From Rhizophagus irregularis (lineage: Eukaryota; Glomeromycota; Glomeromycetes; Glomerales; Glomeraceae), in assembly GCF_026210795.1 (NCBI RefSeq), contig NC_089434.1, positions 3,472,001 to 3,536,000 of the forward strand: a stretch of 64,000 nucleotides of DNA. Direction: 5' to 3'. Numbering within the stretch: the stretch's first letter is position 1; each line of letters begins with the position of its first letter. The notes beneath the pieces are model-generated. The model had not been told where the DNA came from. It searched no databases and saw only the letters and a list, made by a program, of their open reading frames with translations. Position numbers and translations under genes: made by a program. Positions 37,512 through 62,795 of the stretch are shown in pieces.

Positions 37512-40500
37512 AATTTAATAGGACCCCGGACATCACATATATAACTCACATTTGAGTTTTAGCAAATTCAATCAAAATTAGGTTAAACTTATAATTTTAG
37601 ATAGAGCAAATTGATTGAAAATTAATTAATTGCTGATCCTCATGTGATGGGTAGAAATTTTGTGTAACTATTGCGGGGCTATGATTTATAATTAAAAACG
37701 AATACGTTCTGAATCTCGCGTTCCCCATTTTCAAAAATGTCAAAAGGACACTTTACTCCTGGAAAACTTGTTGCTATTGGTAACCTGGTGCCAGAACTTC
37801 ATTATGGCCCTTTTTCACGAGATTGGTGGTATTATTCTGACTCCCAAATTCAAGATTCTAATACCTATGCTATTCCAATAAGACTCGGCTTTCAAGTTGC
37901 TTTAAAACTCAATCAAAAACACTTCATTATTAGAATAGTTCGCAACTTAGAAAATCCAAATACACCAGGTTTTATTTGTGAAGGAGAAGGAATTAATAGT
38001 GGAGTTTGTTTTAGTTCTTCTGCTGCTATAAACACCATTTATGGACGTGTATTTGGTAATAAAAATAAAACAAAATATCCAGGAGCAACAATGTTAGGTT
38101 TTCATGATTCTTATATGATTCAACAAATGCTCAATGATGTGGATTTTCGTCCTTTTACAATTTGTTTATATAATATTACAATTTTTATAGCATCTATTCC
38201 AGATAATAATAATTACGAAGGGTTTGCAGCTAGTTTTACGTATAAATATAAACAAAAACAAAGTGTGATATGGCAGAAAATTGAGGGAGGATTATTTTCA
38301 ATTAGTATTTTTCAAAATGGTGAAATGGTAAAACAATTTCAAGACATAACAGCTTCTTCAGTTTGGAATCAAACCCAATTATTACGAAATTGTGATGGGA
38401 TCGATCTTTTTGGAATTAATCATCCACTCGTGCAGTTTAAATTTAAAGAACGATATGAAAGACTATTTTCTAAGACTTGCACTCTTGATGATTGGAATAA
38501 TAAAAGAATTATGCAATACATGTTCAAATTATATCTAAAAAAACATGTACCCGGAGATGATGAACTTTGGTATCGTATTTTAAATCGTTGGTATAATCAA
38601 AAAAGTACTATTATTGAAATAAAAAGCTTTATTCGTGATTTTTATAATGATAATCATGAAATTAACATGCGTGAGCTTCGGGCATGGAGAGTAATGCTTG
38701 AAGCAATTGGATGTAAAAATATTACTCCATTTGAAAGGGACGTATCTGATGTAAGTATTATTATAAGAAATATTACATTATTTATTTATTATCTAATTAC
38801 AAAATATCCTATAGATGGAATTTTGGAGTCGTGCTAAGGATCCTAAAGGTGATATTGAAACAATATCCAATTTGTTTTCAAATGGATTTTTTGAATACTA
38901 CGCTAAATTCAACAATTAGAAATGACGAATTTGAAAATTGTAAAGACATGCAAATGTTTTTTGGTATTCATTATGTGAAAGTCTTGATGCCAATCCTAAT
39001 GGTTCAAGTGGAAAAATTCGAATTTTATCAATAGTTGCGGAGAATTTCACTTATGAAGAATTGATGAAAAATTTACAGGTATGATAAATTATAATTGTAT
39101 AATAATACATACTAAATAAAAAATATGACTAAATACAAAATCTCACTTAGGTTTCGCCAAAAACAGTTCACGCTGCTCGTGAATATCATCATAAAAATGG
39201 TCCAGGTTGTAAGGCTCTTGATAAACCTATTATTGTTCGTAAACGAATGGCTGAAGTTAAAGAAAGAGAATTTGAATTATTTTTTGCTGATAAAGCAAAC
39301 GTGAATATGAGTTCATATCATATTGACAAAAAAACACAATTACCCGTTCTCTATCTTAAAGATCAAAAAAGTGCATTATGGGAAAGATTCTCAGCTATAT
39401 ATCCTGATGGAATGAAACGAACTTCCTTTATGGCTCGTTTGCAAAATGGAAGATTCAAATATCGTGACGACTTGGGAGGACTTTGTCTTATTTGTAATGA
39501 TTATGCTTATCAACCATTTGAAGATTTGATCAAATTAGTATCAAATAATATTACAAATATGAAAACGAAGGTAAAAAAACATTGAATTACCTTATATTAT
39601 ACTTGTTTCATAAAAATTCTAATTATAAACAGTATTATTGTTAGAATGAATTGATAACTCAATTGGAAATGCTTCGCCGTCACTTAAAAAAAAATTATGA
39701 AAACGAATTATTAGTACACGATAATGGCACAACAAAACACGTGGATTGTATAAATCACTGTTTACTGCATGCATTTGGCGAATGTGTAGAGCAACACTTT
39801 TCACGTTGTGCAGCATGTGACAAACTTTTTGAAGTTTTTGCAACTTTGTCGCATTTATTAGGACATTCATATAATACATTACTTTCAGAATATCAGGAAA
39901 AACTCACCTGCTACCTGGCTCATCAAACACGAAAAAAATATTTGAGTGCACAGTTCAATGCAGTGTTAGATGAATTAGATGATCATGGAGCTATCATAGT
40001 AGTTGATTACAAAATGCGTATTCTTCCAGCAACAGCAAGAGAAACAAAAAGCGAATTTTTCGGCAAAAGAGGCTGGACACTTCACACAACTCTTATTTTT
40101 CAAAAAAAAAACAATGAAAAAATGGATGTCCAAGCATATGACCATTGGTCTTGTGATACGAAACAAGATGCCTGGTTTACGGCATCTTGTTTTGAAGCTG
40201 TATTTAATACCATAAGTCCTCGTCCACGTTGGATTAAAATCATTTCTGATAATGGTGGCCATTATCATAATTCTGAGCTCATGGCTATTGTAAGTCATTG
40301 GTATGATTGGTATGGAGTTGAGGTACGTGGGTGGATATTTTTGGAACCTGGTGAAGCCAAAACCACTGTAGATTCACACCATGCAACGGTATGTTAGCTG
40401 TTGTTTGGTTTTTCATATTTTTTTTTTTTATTCAAAATATTTATTTTTGTAAATAAAAAAGATTGCTCATGCAATAAAACGATATGTTCGAATTGGTTGT

Positions 40501-42276
40501 GAACTTACATCAGGTCAAGATATTGAAAGAGCAATAGAAGAATTGAGTGGAACTTCAGTTGCTCAAATTGAACCTAATCGGAATAAAAATAATGAAAACA
40601 TGGTTTTAGAAAAATCATGGTATGAATATTATATTACTAAATTTGTTGGAATTCCTTACAATCACGTCATTATTCTTTATTTCTCAAATATAGCAACACT
40701 AATTATAAAAAAACTAAAACCATACCTGGCATCTCCAAATGGTTTGTGTGGGATTGGCCAATAACTGAGGAGGCTGCAGGATATGTTAGAGCAAAATCGC
40801 TTCCAAATATTGGAAAATGGACAGAATTTTCACCCGCTGACATAAATACATTTTGTGGTGAAATAAATCGTCCTAATCCTGAATATACAACACCAACAAA
40901 GCCAAAAACACCATGGTTAACATCATTGTCAATGAAAAAAGGTATGCAAAAATCACTTGAACGTGACGAAATGCAAAATTCACCAACTCCAATATCAAAT
41001 CAAATGGGGTAAGTTTGAATTTCTATATTTTATAAAAAAATAAATAAATAAAAATAAAAATACTAACAATTCAAATATTGATAGGGTTGATACAGAATTT
41101 CCACTGAAACCTGGCTGGGCATTAAAAGAAAATCAAAAAATGGGTAATAAAGGAGGAGGTAAACGCATAAGCAAGAAAGTTATACAATACTTGCAGGCTT
41201 ATTTTCATGCAGGTAATCTCAATCCAAAAGACTGATACACTGCTGAAAAAATGCATGAAAGTTTGAAAGAGTTAGCACATGAAAATGAACTTAGCGTTGA
41301 AGATATTCCGGAAGTAAAAACAATAAAGGGATGGATAGGAAGGTATAGTGCCTCCTCTAAAAAAGAAATGTCCGAAAAAGCATTGGAGCAATGTGCACTT
41401 GAAGAAAGTAGTTTAATTACGAATACTACTCACAATAGAGCCAGCAAGCGGCAAAAAAGAGGCTAAATTTAAATATTTTGAATTTTTTGAATCTCATTAT
41501 ATGTTGAAAAGTACTATGAAATCTGCCGTTCCCTTATATAAAACTTTTTAAAATAAAACGAAAAAAAAACTTTTTATTATTTTTGTGGCTTTTCGGACAT
41601 GTGATAAATGATGTAATTTAATAACTACTTTTAGTAACGAATGTGTCAAATTTTTTGGTTAGTGCAAAATGATGAAATTAGTGGTGATCTACATTAATAG
41701 CCCCACGTTTCACTATGTTAATTTCTACCCATTATATACAGATCGGCAATTAATAGTCATAATTATGAGTTTTAGCAAATTGTATTGATTTTACAAAGTC
41801 ATATTTTATATTTGAGCAAATTGGTACTTTTTTTTAAATTTAACTTATCCTTTTTTTTTAACTTTATAAATATTTTTAAAAATATTAGTTTCGGGGTCCG
41901 GGTTATATTTTGGCCAAAATTAAGTATAATTCCGGCCAAAATTAAGCATAATGCGGGCCAAAAACCATCCGTTTAGTTTCGCAACATTTTATTTTTTAAT
42001 AATTATTTATTTTTATTAATTATTATTTTATCTATAATCTACATATTTTAATTATAAAAATTGGCAGTTTAATTTATATTAATCATTTATTTTTTTATTG
42101 ATAATAAAAGAAAAAATTATTAACTCATATTTTGAGTTTTAGCAAATTAGTATAGATTTGAAATGTGATAATTTGATTTTAGCAAATTAGGTCTATTTTA
42201 GCAGGAGCAAAAAGTACTTAAATTCATGCAGATCAGTTATGAGTTATATATGTGATATCCGGGGTCCTAATTTAAT
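37512..42276 (+). mobile_element. Nearly intact DDE DNA transposon with 8-bp target duplication
   Basis: The element runs 37,520-42,268 (4749 bp). Its ends read AGGACCCCGGACATCACATA and, from the right, AGGACCCCGGATATCACATA, matching for about 28 bp. A perfect direct repeat AATTTAAT flanks it (37,512-37,519 and 42,269-42,276). Inside are further repeats: GAGTTTTAGCAAATT in direct orientation at about 37,554, 41,767 and 42,133, and an inverted pair around GGGTAGAAATT...GGGGCTAT (37,650-37,683 / 41,697-41,737). The right end carries about 290 bp of extra A+T-rich sequence (about 41,835-42,120). It encodes one multi-exon transposase. The exact target duplication and well-matched ends suggest recent insertion. 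Confidence 0.9.
37737..41466 (+). pseudogene. DDE transposase, 7 exons, ~1098 codons, three lesions
   Basis: Exons: 37737-38750, 38815-39078, 39151-39570, 39645-40388, 40462-40619, 40694-41008, 41085-41466. All introns are GT-AG and phases agree. Exon 1 is a conserved-looking N-terminal domain of unknown fold. Exon 4 begins with a possible zinc-binding array (CINHC, GEC, CAAC) and holds the probable catalytic core: D687 in IIVVDYKMRI, D768 in IISDNGGHYHN and E803 in LEPGEAKTTVDSHHA, spacing D-81-D-34-E. The C-terminus is Lys-rich and helical, perhaps DNA-binding. Lesions: an in-frame TGA at 41,233 (codon 1022, perhaps from CGA), and two opposite frameshifts in T6 runs at 38,887 and 38,957 that cancel each other. 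Without them the frame is open from ATG to stop. The superfamily is not assigned; an 8-bp duplication excludes TA-specific groups. I recognise similar proteins as multi-copy in Rhizophagus. Confidence 0.85.
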
Positions 42277-45160
42277 AATATTACAATTAATGCTTTTTTT
42301 TATAGTATTTTTTAAGTACTTTATGAAGATTTACTTTAATATTATTTATAATTAATAAGATTAAAGGTATTTACTAATATATTTATTTTTCTTTTAGCTT
42401 CAAATTCATTATCTTTATTATTTTTTTCAAACTGATATTTTTCAAATATATTATCATTTATATTTAAGTTTAAATAATTTTATTTTGTTAAATTGTTAGT
42501 TAAAATTTATTTTAAATTTAGGATTAATTTTATATTCACCAGTAATATGATAATTTTAGTTTTATAAGTTTTATATTAATTTTGTTTGTATTACGTTTTA
42601 CAATTTCATACACGTAAATAAAAATTTTTTTATGAATTTTTTTAAACTGTAACTTTTTTTCCAAACATACTATTAAACCCATACAACTCAATTTCATAAA
42701 TTAGAAATGAAATTTATAGAGAAATTTGTGTTTTTATAACACTACTAACTGTTTAACTCCTAAAGTTTTATATTTTTTATTTAATAACTTTAGAGTGTAA
42801 TTTCACTACTTTAGTCAAATGAAATCAATTTCTTTTATTAATTAAAAGTTGTTCAACAGAGCCAAAACTACTTGTATATTATTTTTTATAAGTGTAGGTA
42901 TAATACATATAAAAAAACCCATATTTTTTCATAATGGTACTAACTTTCAAAGTTGTTTTTTCATTTATTAACTTCAGAGCGTAATTTTACTACTTTAGTT
43001 AAATGAAATTGACTTTTTAAATTAATTGAAAATTGTTCAGCAAGGTCGAAACTACGTGTATATTAATTTTCATGGGTGTAGGTATAATATATATGGAGAA
43101 ACCAACATTTTTCATAATAGTACTAACTTTTGAATTTTTTTTTTCTGTTTACTAAGTTTAGAGCGTAATTTCACCACTTTAGTCAAATGAAATCGACTTA
43201 CTAAATTAATTGAAAATTGTTCAGCAAGGTCGAAACTACTTGTGTATTAATTTTCATAGGTGTAAATATAATACATATGGAGAAATCTACATTTTTCATA
43301 ACGGTACTAACTTTTGAATTTTTTTTTTTCTGTTTATTAACTTCAGCGCGTAATTTCACCACTTTAGTCAAATGAAATCGACTTTCTAACTTAATTGAAA
43401 ATTGTTCAGCAAGGTTGAAACTACTTGTATATTAATTTTCATAGGTGTAGGTATAATACATATGGAGAAATCTACATTTTTCATAACGGTACTAACTTTC
43501 AAATTTTTCTTTTTTCTATTTACTAACTTTAGAGTGTAATTTCACCACTTTAGTCAAATGAAATTTACTTCCTTTATTAATTGAAAGTTGTTTAGCAATA
43601 TAAAATCTACTTAATATTGTAGGATTTATTTATTTTTTATAATAATACTAACTTATGAATTATTGTATAATATATTATTATATTTAAACTATATATTTTA
43701 TATAAATATTTTTATTAATAAAATTATTATTTTTTTCAAAACAAAACAATTTAAATTTTAATAAATTATGTAATATAGGTGAACTTTACCTTGGGTGAAT
43801 TTCACCACTGGTGAGCGTTAAAATCACCCTTAAATTTAATAATATTTGAATATACATAACTAACTGTTACATATTTAATACCTTTAATAATTTAGTAAAA
43901 TTTTAAGTAAATCTCTTATAATATCTTATTTCTTATTAATAAAATTAATTTTTTTTAATTTTTTTGCATTTTTTTTTGTATTTTATTTTTTATTTACATT
44001 TAATAATAAAATTATAATCTCAATATATATATGATGTAAAATAATTAATTTTTCTCAAATTATAACCATTATATTTTAATATCAATTATTATTTTATAAA
44101 ATACTGATTCTTTTCTATATCCTTACTGGAATTTTTTTATATATTAATAAAATATTTATATTTTATTTTAAAGATATAAAGAAATTAATTAATTTTTAGT
44201 ATATATAATGTTATAAGTAATCCTTTATTAATAACTAATTGAATAGTATATATAAGATAATCTTTCTGTAAAAAAGTTAATCCATTTTTTTATTCCATTT
44301 TTTTTTGGTAAAAAGCTCATATTTTTAGAATTAATAGCTTTATTTAAAGATTTAGAATATTTAAAAATTTTATATTTTTTATTTAAATGATTAGATTTGA
44401 AGTTTTAATTTTTACAGTATAATTTTCATTATTATTATATTTTTAATTATACTTAAAATATATTTATTTGGATCAGTTGGATGAGTTTTTTATTTACCTT
44501 AATATATATTATATCTAATTACAAAATTTTAACCCTTTTTTTTCCTTATTTTGAATATTTAATAAATTAGAGTTACAAGATTTTTTTTTATTAAGTTTAT
44601 TAAAAAAGCATTTTCATTATTTTTTTTATATATTTAAATTTATTAAATTATAAAAAATTTTTTACATCAGCTTAAAACTATGCATATTTTTTATAAATTA
44701 TATTTTATTTAAACTAAATTTTAATGTAATGTTTAATATAGGAACTAATCTTCTATTAAAGCTTATTTTAATAAAATAAAATATATTTTTATAAAAAAAG
44801 ATAAAGTGGCTTTGATTAAGATTAATAATCAATTTAAATTTTTAAATATTAATTGGATTATCTGTAAAGATTTATAAATTTATTTATTTTTTACTTAAAT
44901 ATTGAATCTAGATATTCATTTTAAAATTAACTGGATATAGTTAAAACAATAGAATAATTCAAATAAATCCTAGGAAATTATTCATTCAAAAAAAACTTTA
45001 ATTAAACTATCTATTTTTAATAATAATATATAAGATACTAAAATTAATAAGTGTTTTTTTATTATTATATGTATTATAAATATTAGTGATTGATTTGATA
45101 CAATTGAATAGATCAATTATTTAATAAAAAAAAATAAAAATGACAAAACTGAGACTTTAT
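42277..45160. other. Extremely A+T-rich block, right part
   Basis: Continuation of the block interrupted by the transposon. Apart from the satellite at 42.7-43.7 kb I see no gene, only A/T tracts with very few G or C. Confidence 0.6.
42700..43680. repeat. Tandem satellite, ~184-bp unit, about five copies
   Basis: The word (G)TACTAACTTT recurs at about 42,938, 43,120, 43,304, 43,489 and (variant) 43,650, with a first degraded unit near 42,742: spacings 196, 182, 184, 185 and about 160. Each unit carries ACTTTAGTCAAATGAAAT, GAAAATTGTTCAGCAAGGT and CATATGGAGAAA. Middle copies are closest to each other and the outer ones more degraded, the usual pattern for unequal crossing-over. No coding frame is conserved. 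Confidence 0.9.
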
Positions 45161-61734: not shown

Positions 61735-62135
61735 TGACATTTTTTTCTAATATTGATGTGCACCTGTTGTGGGATCATACCGTCAGGTTCATTAAGAATA
61801 TTAAGAATACGATTTATTTAAAAGTATAAATAAATACGACTTTTATCATTGTTCTATTTTTAATCCTTTCCCTTGTTGGTTAGTTTAGTTGCTGCGATTG
61901 GATATATCGATTGGTGCATAAAAGATATTACTAGCGTTATTGTTTTTCTAACACTGATGCGCATCTGTTGTGGCAGTTTCATCGCATTAGTACAATGTAG
62001 TCCACTAAGAACGCCTAATTCACTAAAAGGTATAAATATCATACTGGTGTAGACGACTTTCATCATTACTTTTATTTGTAATTCTTTCCATTATCAATTA
62101 ATTTTAATTACTGTAATTAAATAATTTTTATTCTT
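61735..62135 (+). promoter_or_regulatory. Tandemly duplicated promoter of the secreted mucin-like gene
   Basis: Two related segments follow each other at a spacing of about 206 bp. Both contain TTTTTCTAA(T/C)A(T/C)TGATG(T/C)GCA(C/T)CTGTTGTGG, then a TATA-box-like TATAAATA (61,825-61,832 and 62,031-62,038), then ACGACTTT(T/C)ATCATT and a T/C-rich tract. The nearer TATA lies 111 bp before the ATG at 62,142. The shared GATG(T/C)GCA(C/T)CTGTTGTGG word may be an upstream control element (inference). Confidence 0.7.
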
Positions 62136-62141
62136 TTCATC

Positions 62142-62795
62142 ATGATATGGTCAAATAGAAATTTTCTTTTCATTACGACTGGTTTAGTCGTTTTGATGCT
62201 TTTTTTCTCGTCGTCAGTAGCAACTAATAACCATCATAAACACTGCGATAAAGTAGTCAAGGCACACCATTATACTAGAACCGTTTATCCATCACATTGC
62301 CCAAAAAGACACACTAAAACAACCACAACTACATCTACCGCTACCGCAACTACCACCACTACAAGCACCACCACCACCACCACCACCACCACTACCACCA
62401 CTACCACCACTACCACTTTCGTTGAGCCCACTGGACCATTTCGAAAGAGGCATAATCAAGAACATGAACATTTTAAATGTGTTCCTGATAAACATAAACA
62501 TTATACTTATAATAAACATGGCAAATGCACAGAAATCACCTATTGTACTCCAACAGTTTATAAACCATGTCCTAAAAAAAATAAAACCACAACAAAAACC
62601 GAATTTGAAACCACCACCTCCACTGCTACCGCCACTACTACTTCCACTTCCACTTCCACTTCCACCTCCGTTTTAGTAATACCCACATGTAGGGCTAGTG
62701 GCGCTTTTTGTGATTTCGCTAGTACCGGTGCATGCTGTAGCCGATGTTGTTTTTTAACTGATGCTAATCAACAACCAATTAATAAATGTTGCTAA
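62142..62795 (+). CDS. Secreted Thr-rich, Cys-rich protein (217 aa)
   Basis: Residues 1-27 form a clear signal peptide: a hydrophobic run FLFITTGLVVLMLFFSSSVA. Next come a His-rich segment with two Cys, a poly-Thr linker (about 58-92), a Lys/His-rich domain with four Cys (113, 129, 135, 143), a second Thr/Ser/Ala linker (149-176), and a C-terminal Cys module (183-217) with pattern C-x6-C-x7-CC-x2-CC-x12-CC. The Thr linkers are probable O-mannosylation stalks; the tail resembles a knottin-like disulphide domain. A cell-wall, spore-wall or symbiosis-interface role is inferred only. The Thr runs are coded by near-pure ACC/ACT/ACA repeats, prone to length change. Intronless. The start is fixed by the leader and by the duplicated promoter upstream. 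Confidence 0.85.
   Translation: MIWSNRNFLFITTGLVVLMLFFSSSVATNNHHKHCDKVVKAHHYTRTVYPSHCPKRHTKTTTTTSTATATTTTTSTTTTTTTTTTTTTTTTTFVEPTGPFRKRHNQEHEHFKCVPDKHKHYTYNKHGKCTEITYCTPTVYKPCPKKNKTTTKTEFETTTSTATATTTSTSTSTSTSVLVIPTCRASGAFCDFASTGACCSRCCFLTDANQQPINKCC

Follow-up and report, generated by a model that had tools for sequence, protein, structure and literature searches.

Transposons of the Sola3 group target TTAA, and Mutator-like elements (MULEs) generate target duplications of about 8-11 bp. According to the accessible part of PMC9587614, piggyBac and Kolobok make TTAA duplications, and Kolobok is further marked by 5'-RR..YY-3' termini and a C/DxxH motif between the second D and the last E of its transposase. 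In Rhizophagus irregularis, about two-thirds of transposable elements are unclassified, and a curated library for this fungus names Sola-1, Sola-2, CMC, MULE, hAT-19, Plavaka and others (accessible part of PMC11075540). Here we describe a 4.75-kb region (positions 37512-42276) within a 64,000-nucleotide stretch of the R. irregularis genome (contig NC_089434.1, positions 3,472,001 to 3,536,000 of the forward strand; hereafter the window), which an initial annotation had presented as one young, almost intact DDE (Asp-Asp-Glu) transposon of unassigned superfamily. Our results indicate that this "transposon" is, with high probability, a young TTAA-targeting transposon nested in an older, MULE-derived miniature inverted-repeat transposable element (MITE).

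A TTAA insertion nested in a shorter repeat

The outer bounds of the region are formed by an exact 8-bp direct repeat (AATTTAAT/AATTTAAT) and by inverted ends of ~28 bp (AGGACCCCGGACATCACATATATAACTCA, inverted-repeat pair I1), both of which are present in the sequence as initially reported. A second inverted-repeat pair (I4, 37625-37659/41720-41754) is located inside, brackets the gene and represents the inner ends. When the source genome (146.7 Mb, 32 contigs) was searched with the whole 4.75-kb stretch as query, 40 of 348 candidates were scored, making the resulting copy counts lower bounds, and the listed matches fell into two separate kinds of repeat, an outer one of ~640 bp and an inner one of 4.1 kb at full length. 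At least 30 right-hand parts of the outer repeat were found (offsets from ~4237), 29 of them adjoining the left-hand part (offsets up to 119), and the window copy is the sole one among the matches listed with both outer and inner parts. In 12 hand-picked stand-alone MITE copies fetched from the genome (L057-L068), an uninterrupted GAAAATTAATTAATAGT was present in every case, and this sequence is what the two window flanks of the inner element give when joined across one TTAA. Because all 12 copies show this empty site with one TTAA, the inner element can be delimited to 37630-41749 inside a 625-bp MITE. Six full-length inner copies (L002-L007) reside elsewhere, outside the window MITE, and all seven full-length copies, including that of the window, have TTAA on both sides. 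Furthermore, identity to the joined window MITE is 94.6-96.1% for the 12 MITE copies, while the nearest inner-element copy reaches 99.76%, in keeping with an insertion younger than its host MITE. The resulting features are as follows.

37512-37519, no strand: left copy of the 8-bp target duplication AATTTAAT of the outer MITE (sequence; flanks of 12 MITE copies)
37520-37629, + strand: left part of the 625-bp MITE, best read as MULE-derived (ends AGGACCCC), through the target TTAA (L057-L068; ends of MULE element L081)
37626-37629, no strand: left TTAA of the inner insertion (empty site in 12/12 MITE copies; TTAA flanks of 7/7 full-length copies)
37630-41749, + strand: inner TTAA-targeting DNA transposon, 4120 bp, TTGCTGATC...GATCGGCAA (six other full-length copies; I4)
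37737-38750, + strand: exon 1, N-terminal region (open frame; region found across the family)
38815-39078, + strand: exon 2, carrying two compensating frameshifts (+1/-1) in the window copy (comparison of copies)
39151-39570, + strand: exon 3, upstream of the putative catalytic exon (gene model)
39645-40388, + strand: exon 4, Cys/His-rich region and putative D-80-D-31-E core with D687, D768 and E800 (34-copy alignment; purifying selection)
40462-40619, + strand: exon 5 (gene model)
40694-41008, + strand: exon 6 (gene model)
41085-41466, + strand: exon 7 with the stop codon, and a premature TGA at 41233-41235 in the window copy (gene model)
41750-41753, no strand: right TTAA of the inner insertion (flanks of copies; MITE empty sites)
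41754-42268, + strand: right part of the MITE, best read as MULE-derived, ending ...GGGGTCCT (stand-alone MITE copies)
42269-42276, no strand: right copy of the 8-bp target duplication of the MITE (sequence; MITE copies)

All 12 fetched MITE copies have direct flanks of 8 bp, which match exactly in 10 and differ at one position in 2. When up to 3 mismatches are allowed, the genome contains the MITE terminus 109 times in forward and 114 times in reverse orientation, compared with 0 for a reversed control. Two long-spaced pairs of MITE termini were read in detail. The termini of the first (L081, C12:1230680-1234500) are 3.76 kb apart with GGATCTGG flanking both sides; its alignments with a MITE copy cover 373 columns (95.7% identity) and 293 columns (98.3%), and its protein matches include MULE (PF10551, E 5e-18), FAR1 (E 4e-7) and a Mutator-family transposase. 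The second (L082, C5:2496200-2498910, 2.7 kb) is a MITE broken by ~1.2 and ~0.7 kb of unrelated sequence, and no transposase-like open reading frame (ORF) was seen by eye between its MITE ends. Since L081 possesses the same ends together with a MULE transposase, the outer 625 bp are best read as a MULE-derived MITE, and the 8-bp flanks of the MITE copies as well as GGATCTGG of L081 fall within the range of MULE target duplications.

A single autonomous element of 4.75 kb, bearing AGGACCCC ends and an 8-bp duplication, from which the 625-bp MITEs arose by internal deletion, would account for the gene being enclosed by these ends and this duplication. However, it has to contend with the six full-length 4.1-kb copies lying between TTAAs outside this MITE, with a MITE junction that consists of the flanks joined by exactly one TTAA in 12/12 fetched copies, and with the same outer ends being carried by the MULE element L081. 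We rejected this explanation on the basis of the MITE empty sites and the independent TTAA-flanked inner copies, leaving it next to no likelihood. The 625-bp and 4120-bp parts occur independently of each other elsewhere in the genome, and the AGGACCCC ends and 8-bp duplication that had been taken for the transposon's own belong to the MULE-derived MITE, the real target duplication being TTAA. The inner copies do not share the AGGACCCC/8-bp boundaries, a finding that the initial annotation had itself named beforehand as speaking against its proposal.

The region most probably arose in two steps. A 625-bp MITE would have inserted at this place, creating the 8-bp duplication, presumably with a MULE transposase acting in trans. 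Later, a 4120-bp autonomous-type DNA transposon would have recognised a TTAA in the MITE, inserted there and duplicated the TTAA.

Copies and gene of the inner element

Five of the inner copies (L002-L006) were aligned in full and share 96.2-99.76% identity with the window copy, the nearest four being 99.2-99.8% identical, while L007 (88% identity in the genome search) stands outside the full-length alignment. In L006 the alignment extends ~40 AT-rich bases beyond the element, which was taken for chance. Further partial inner copies appeared in the genome search, including L008 on C3, which seems to be split. Four diverged subfamilies represented by two elements each, with 52-62% exon-4 protein identity and ends starting with TTCGTGATCCG or TTGCTA, are also flanked by TTAA (8/8), and their within-subfamily pairs are 99.16-100% identical over 4.2-5.5 kb aligned. 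Two 4172-bp copies of a related subfamily (C11:3477225-3481396 and C15:624212-628383) are 100% identical at different TTAA sites, pointing to very recent movement.

Of 199 genomic occurrences of TTCGTGATCCG (6 for the reversed control), 170 immediately follow a TTAA, and the exon-4 protein has at least 154 matches in the genome. Related copies of the inner element number roughly a hundred. Its protein family, with some 120 listed places, is large and possibly still mobile. At least 11 facing pairs of TTCGTGATCCG ends lie 411-514 bp apart, and such ~500-bp pairs are probable short non-autonomous derivatives (MITEs) of the inner family. Facing TTAATTCGTGATCCG pairs of this kind, at ~500 bp, lie for example at C6:414469-414963, C6:1945945-1946444 and C15:2045790-2046295. 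Separately, full-length spans of ~4.3 kb between TTCGTGATCCG ends were seen for one subfamily at C16:253885-258213, C5:5063549-5067877, C6:1028677-1032992 and C4:3158747-3163073, and the exon ORFs of the C16 copy look open by eye.

Splice sites in the inner element give seven exons (1014+264+420+744+158+315+382 = 3297 nt), corresponding to 1098 codons plus stop. Relative to the five other aligned copies, the window copy has one extra and one missing base in exon 2 as well as the premature TGA in exon 7. This agrees with the initial description of seven exons and ~1098 codons in which a single stop and two mutually cancelling frameshifts interrupt the reading frame. Among 120 exon-4 places listed by hand, 89 (including 55 of the first 60) are preceded on the same strand, at a distance of 0.5-6 kb, by the N-terminal region, indicating that exon 1 belongs to the family and is not a local fusion.

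To compare exon 4, 34 members were aligned, consisting of the window and 33 stop-free sequences from 46 loci after dropping identical proteins. Both aspartates of the triad put forward at first (D687/D768/E803) are conserved, with D687 (exon-4 D121) kept in 33/34 and D768 (D202) in 34/34. By contrast, E803 (E237) is kept in 32/34 while E800 (E234) is kept in 34/34. The third acid is thus most likely E800, giving a putative D-80-D-31-E spacing, with E803 (D-80-D-34-E) as the alternative; 80 residues separate the two aspartates rather than the 81 originally counted. A Cys/His-rich stretch precedes this core, with C39, C47 and C55 in 34/34 and C35, H38, H51 and C58 in 33/34 (exon-4 numbering). 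Among 15 pairs used in a selection test, nine with a finite synonymous divergence (dS) above 0.3 gave nonsynonymous-to-synonymous ratios (dN/dS) of 0.05-0.17, although three of these nine are near saturation with dS above 1.8. The remaining pairs comprise four that are saturated, L015/L016, whose dN/dS of 0.60 comes from a very small number of changes, and one without synonymous change. Diverged copies are under purifying selection, as expected of a transposase that needs to work to spread.

The 7-exon, 1098-codon gene would encode the transposase of the inner element, which would bind the TTGC/TTCG-type ends and excise the element through an RNase-H-like DDE active site composed of D687, D768 and most likely E800, before the excised element would be joined to staggered cuts at TTAA. 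We infer the DDE mechanism from the inverted ends, the fixed short target duplication and the conserved acids of a large family, and the inner element appears to work like a TTAA cut-and-paste transposon. Accepting the inner 4120 bp as the unit, the description as young, nearly intact, DDE-like and unassigned remains apt, given the nearest four copies, the conserved acids and the marginal library matches described below, while its boundaries had to be redrawn.

Several observations weigh against this interpretation. With TT..AA ends, the sequences would look no different if just the 2-bp TA were duplicated inside an obligatory TTAA, although a 4-bp TTAA duplication is the simpler reading. The gene model is intact in none of the six near-identical copies (window and L002-L006). 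Five further acids (E133, D166, D171, D175 and D243 in exon-4 numbering) are likewise invariant in the 34 copies, so that conservation alone leaves the choice of triad non-unique. Sequence searches against Pfam, NCBIfam, PHROGs and PDB yielded marginal matches only and no convincing link to a known transposase, the nearest being PHROG 157 'transposase' at E 0.029 in just 2/34 exon-4 members. AlphaFold2 models of single window sequences reached a mean predicted local distance difference test score (pLDDT) of 41.7 for exon 4 (250 aa) and 43.9 for its C-terminal 143 aa, values too low for either model to be usable, and Foldseek of the 143-aa model returned no match at E <= 0.001, the best being single-stranded DNA-binding (SSB) proteins at E 0.13. 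The poor 143-aa model places the first Asp on a strand, with an RNase H-like order of strands and helices, and was given no weight.

As for the other marginal matches, the 34 exon-4 members gave zf-C2HE as the best in Pfam (E 0.0018, 2 members) and PHROG 38067, without function, in PHROGs (E 0.0012, 3 members), and 14 N-terminal members gave DUF3943 (E 0.008) and HTH_48 of Mos1 (E 0.013) in one member each. The best PDB E values were 0.23 and 0.51, and nothing fell under 0.09 in NCBIfam. These marginal matches had no common theme and were treated as chance. A weak resemblance to FYRC, below cut-off, was seen in a few N-terminal regions: a single piece scored 12.3 bits (E 0.2) versus a cut-off of 21, and 2/14 members matched with a best E of 0.13. 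A SAP-like or LEM-like piece in the subfamily of the C16 copy was likewise under cut-off (E 0.05 and 0.03). None of 32 pattern stretches in IMG/VR and none of 69 in GTDB contigs was confirmed as a relative, and Rfam gave no match on the window at gathering scores.

Neighbouring features and significance

The window also contains a tandem array with a ~184-bp unit in 4.5 copies (42762-43598), which starts roughly 0.5 kb past the end of the nested structure. Further downstream, a 224-aa ORF (62121-62795) resembles, by eye, a secreted Thr-rich, Cys-containing protein.

The true boundaries alter both the entry for a repeat library and the substrate for bench work, in that the transposase is to be paired with TTAA and with TTGC/TTCG ends rather than with AGGACCCC. 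Some 120 hand-listed places carry a conserved putative transposase that is unrecognised by the domain libraries scanned. Its TTAA targets, near-identical copies and probable short derivatives make the family a practical choice for assays of active transposition in fungi of this kind.

Comparison with known superfamilies

The TTAA duplication is common to the inner element and to Kolobok as characterised in the accessible part of PMC9587614. However, the inner termini are TT..AA in the window family and the four subfamilies instead of 5'-RR..YY-3', the C/DxxH motif between the second D and E is lacking in 33/34 copies (present in L052 only), and a THAP domain was not found in Pfam scans, making a Kolobok lineage very unlikely. 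A divergent piggyBac would share the TTAA target and the inverted ends, and piggyBac relatives do exist in this genome (22 PF13843 matches). Nevertheless, DDE_Tnp_1_7 was detected in 0/34 exon-4 members at E up to 10 (filters drop most matches above 0.1), 0/22 PF13843 places coincide with listed exon-4 places, and the inner element has TTGC/TTCG ends without a piggyBac domain, so that this origin is extremely improbable.

A DDE-like superfamily without a name in print would be compatible with the marginal library matches and with the lack of confirmed relatives in viral or prokaryote contigs. By contrast, animal proteins with a similar motif order exist, and eukaryotic transposons are catalogued in Repbase and Dfam, outside the libraries compared; on balance a nameless superfamily seems rather unlikely. 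The fuller proposal is more doubtful still, namely an unnamed TTAA-targeting superfamily with a large multi-exon transposase containing an N-terminus possibly related to the FYRN/FYRC domains of chromatin proteins, a Cys/His-rich region, D-80-D-31-E with ExxEAKxxxDxHHA from the third acid and a conserved C-terminal region. If the family did prove to be unnamed, it would account, together with its short derivatives, for some of the repeats that are unclassified in this genome. No name for it was found in the literature searched, where the primary Sola and all-DDE-superfamily papers were outside coverage, and the R. irregularis library may already hold the family under one of its labels or as unclassified (accessible part of PMC11075540). 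A lineage of Sola3, or of Sola more broadly, can be suggested tentatively from the TTAA duplication and the DDE-like conserved core, and the report of Sola-1 and Sola-2 among R. irregularis repeats in the accessible part of PMC11075540 counts in its favour.

Taken together, the two parts of the nested structure resemble different systems. The outer part is like MULEs and their MITEs in having ends common with a MULE/FAR1-encoding element and 8-bp duplications, unlike the inner gene, whose protein has no MULE match in Pfam scans. The inner element resembles Sola3 in the two features compared, the TTAA target and a DDE-like core.

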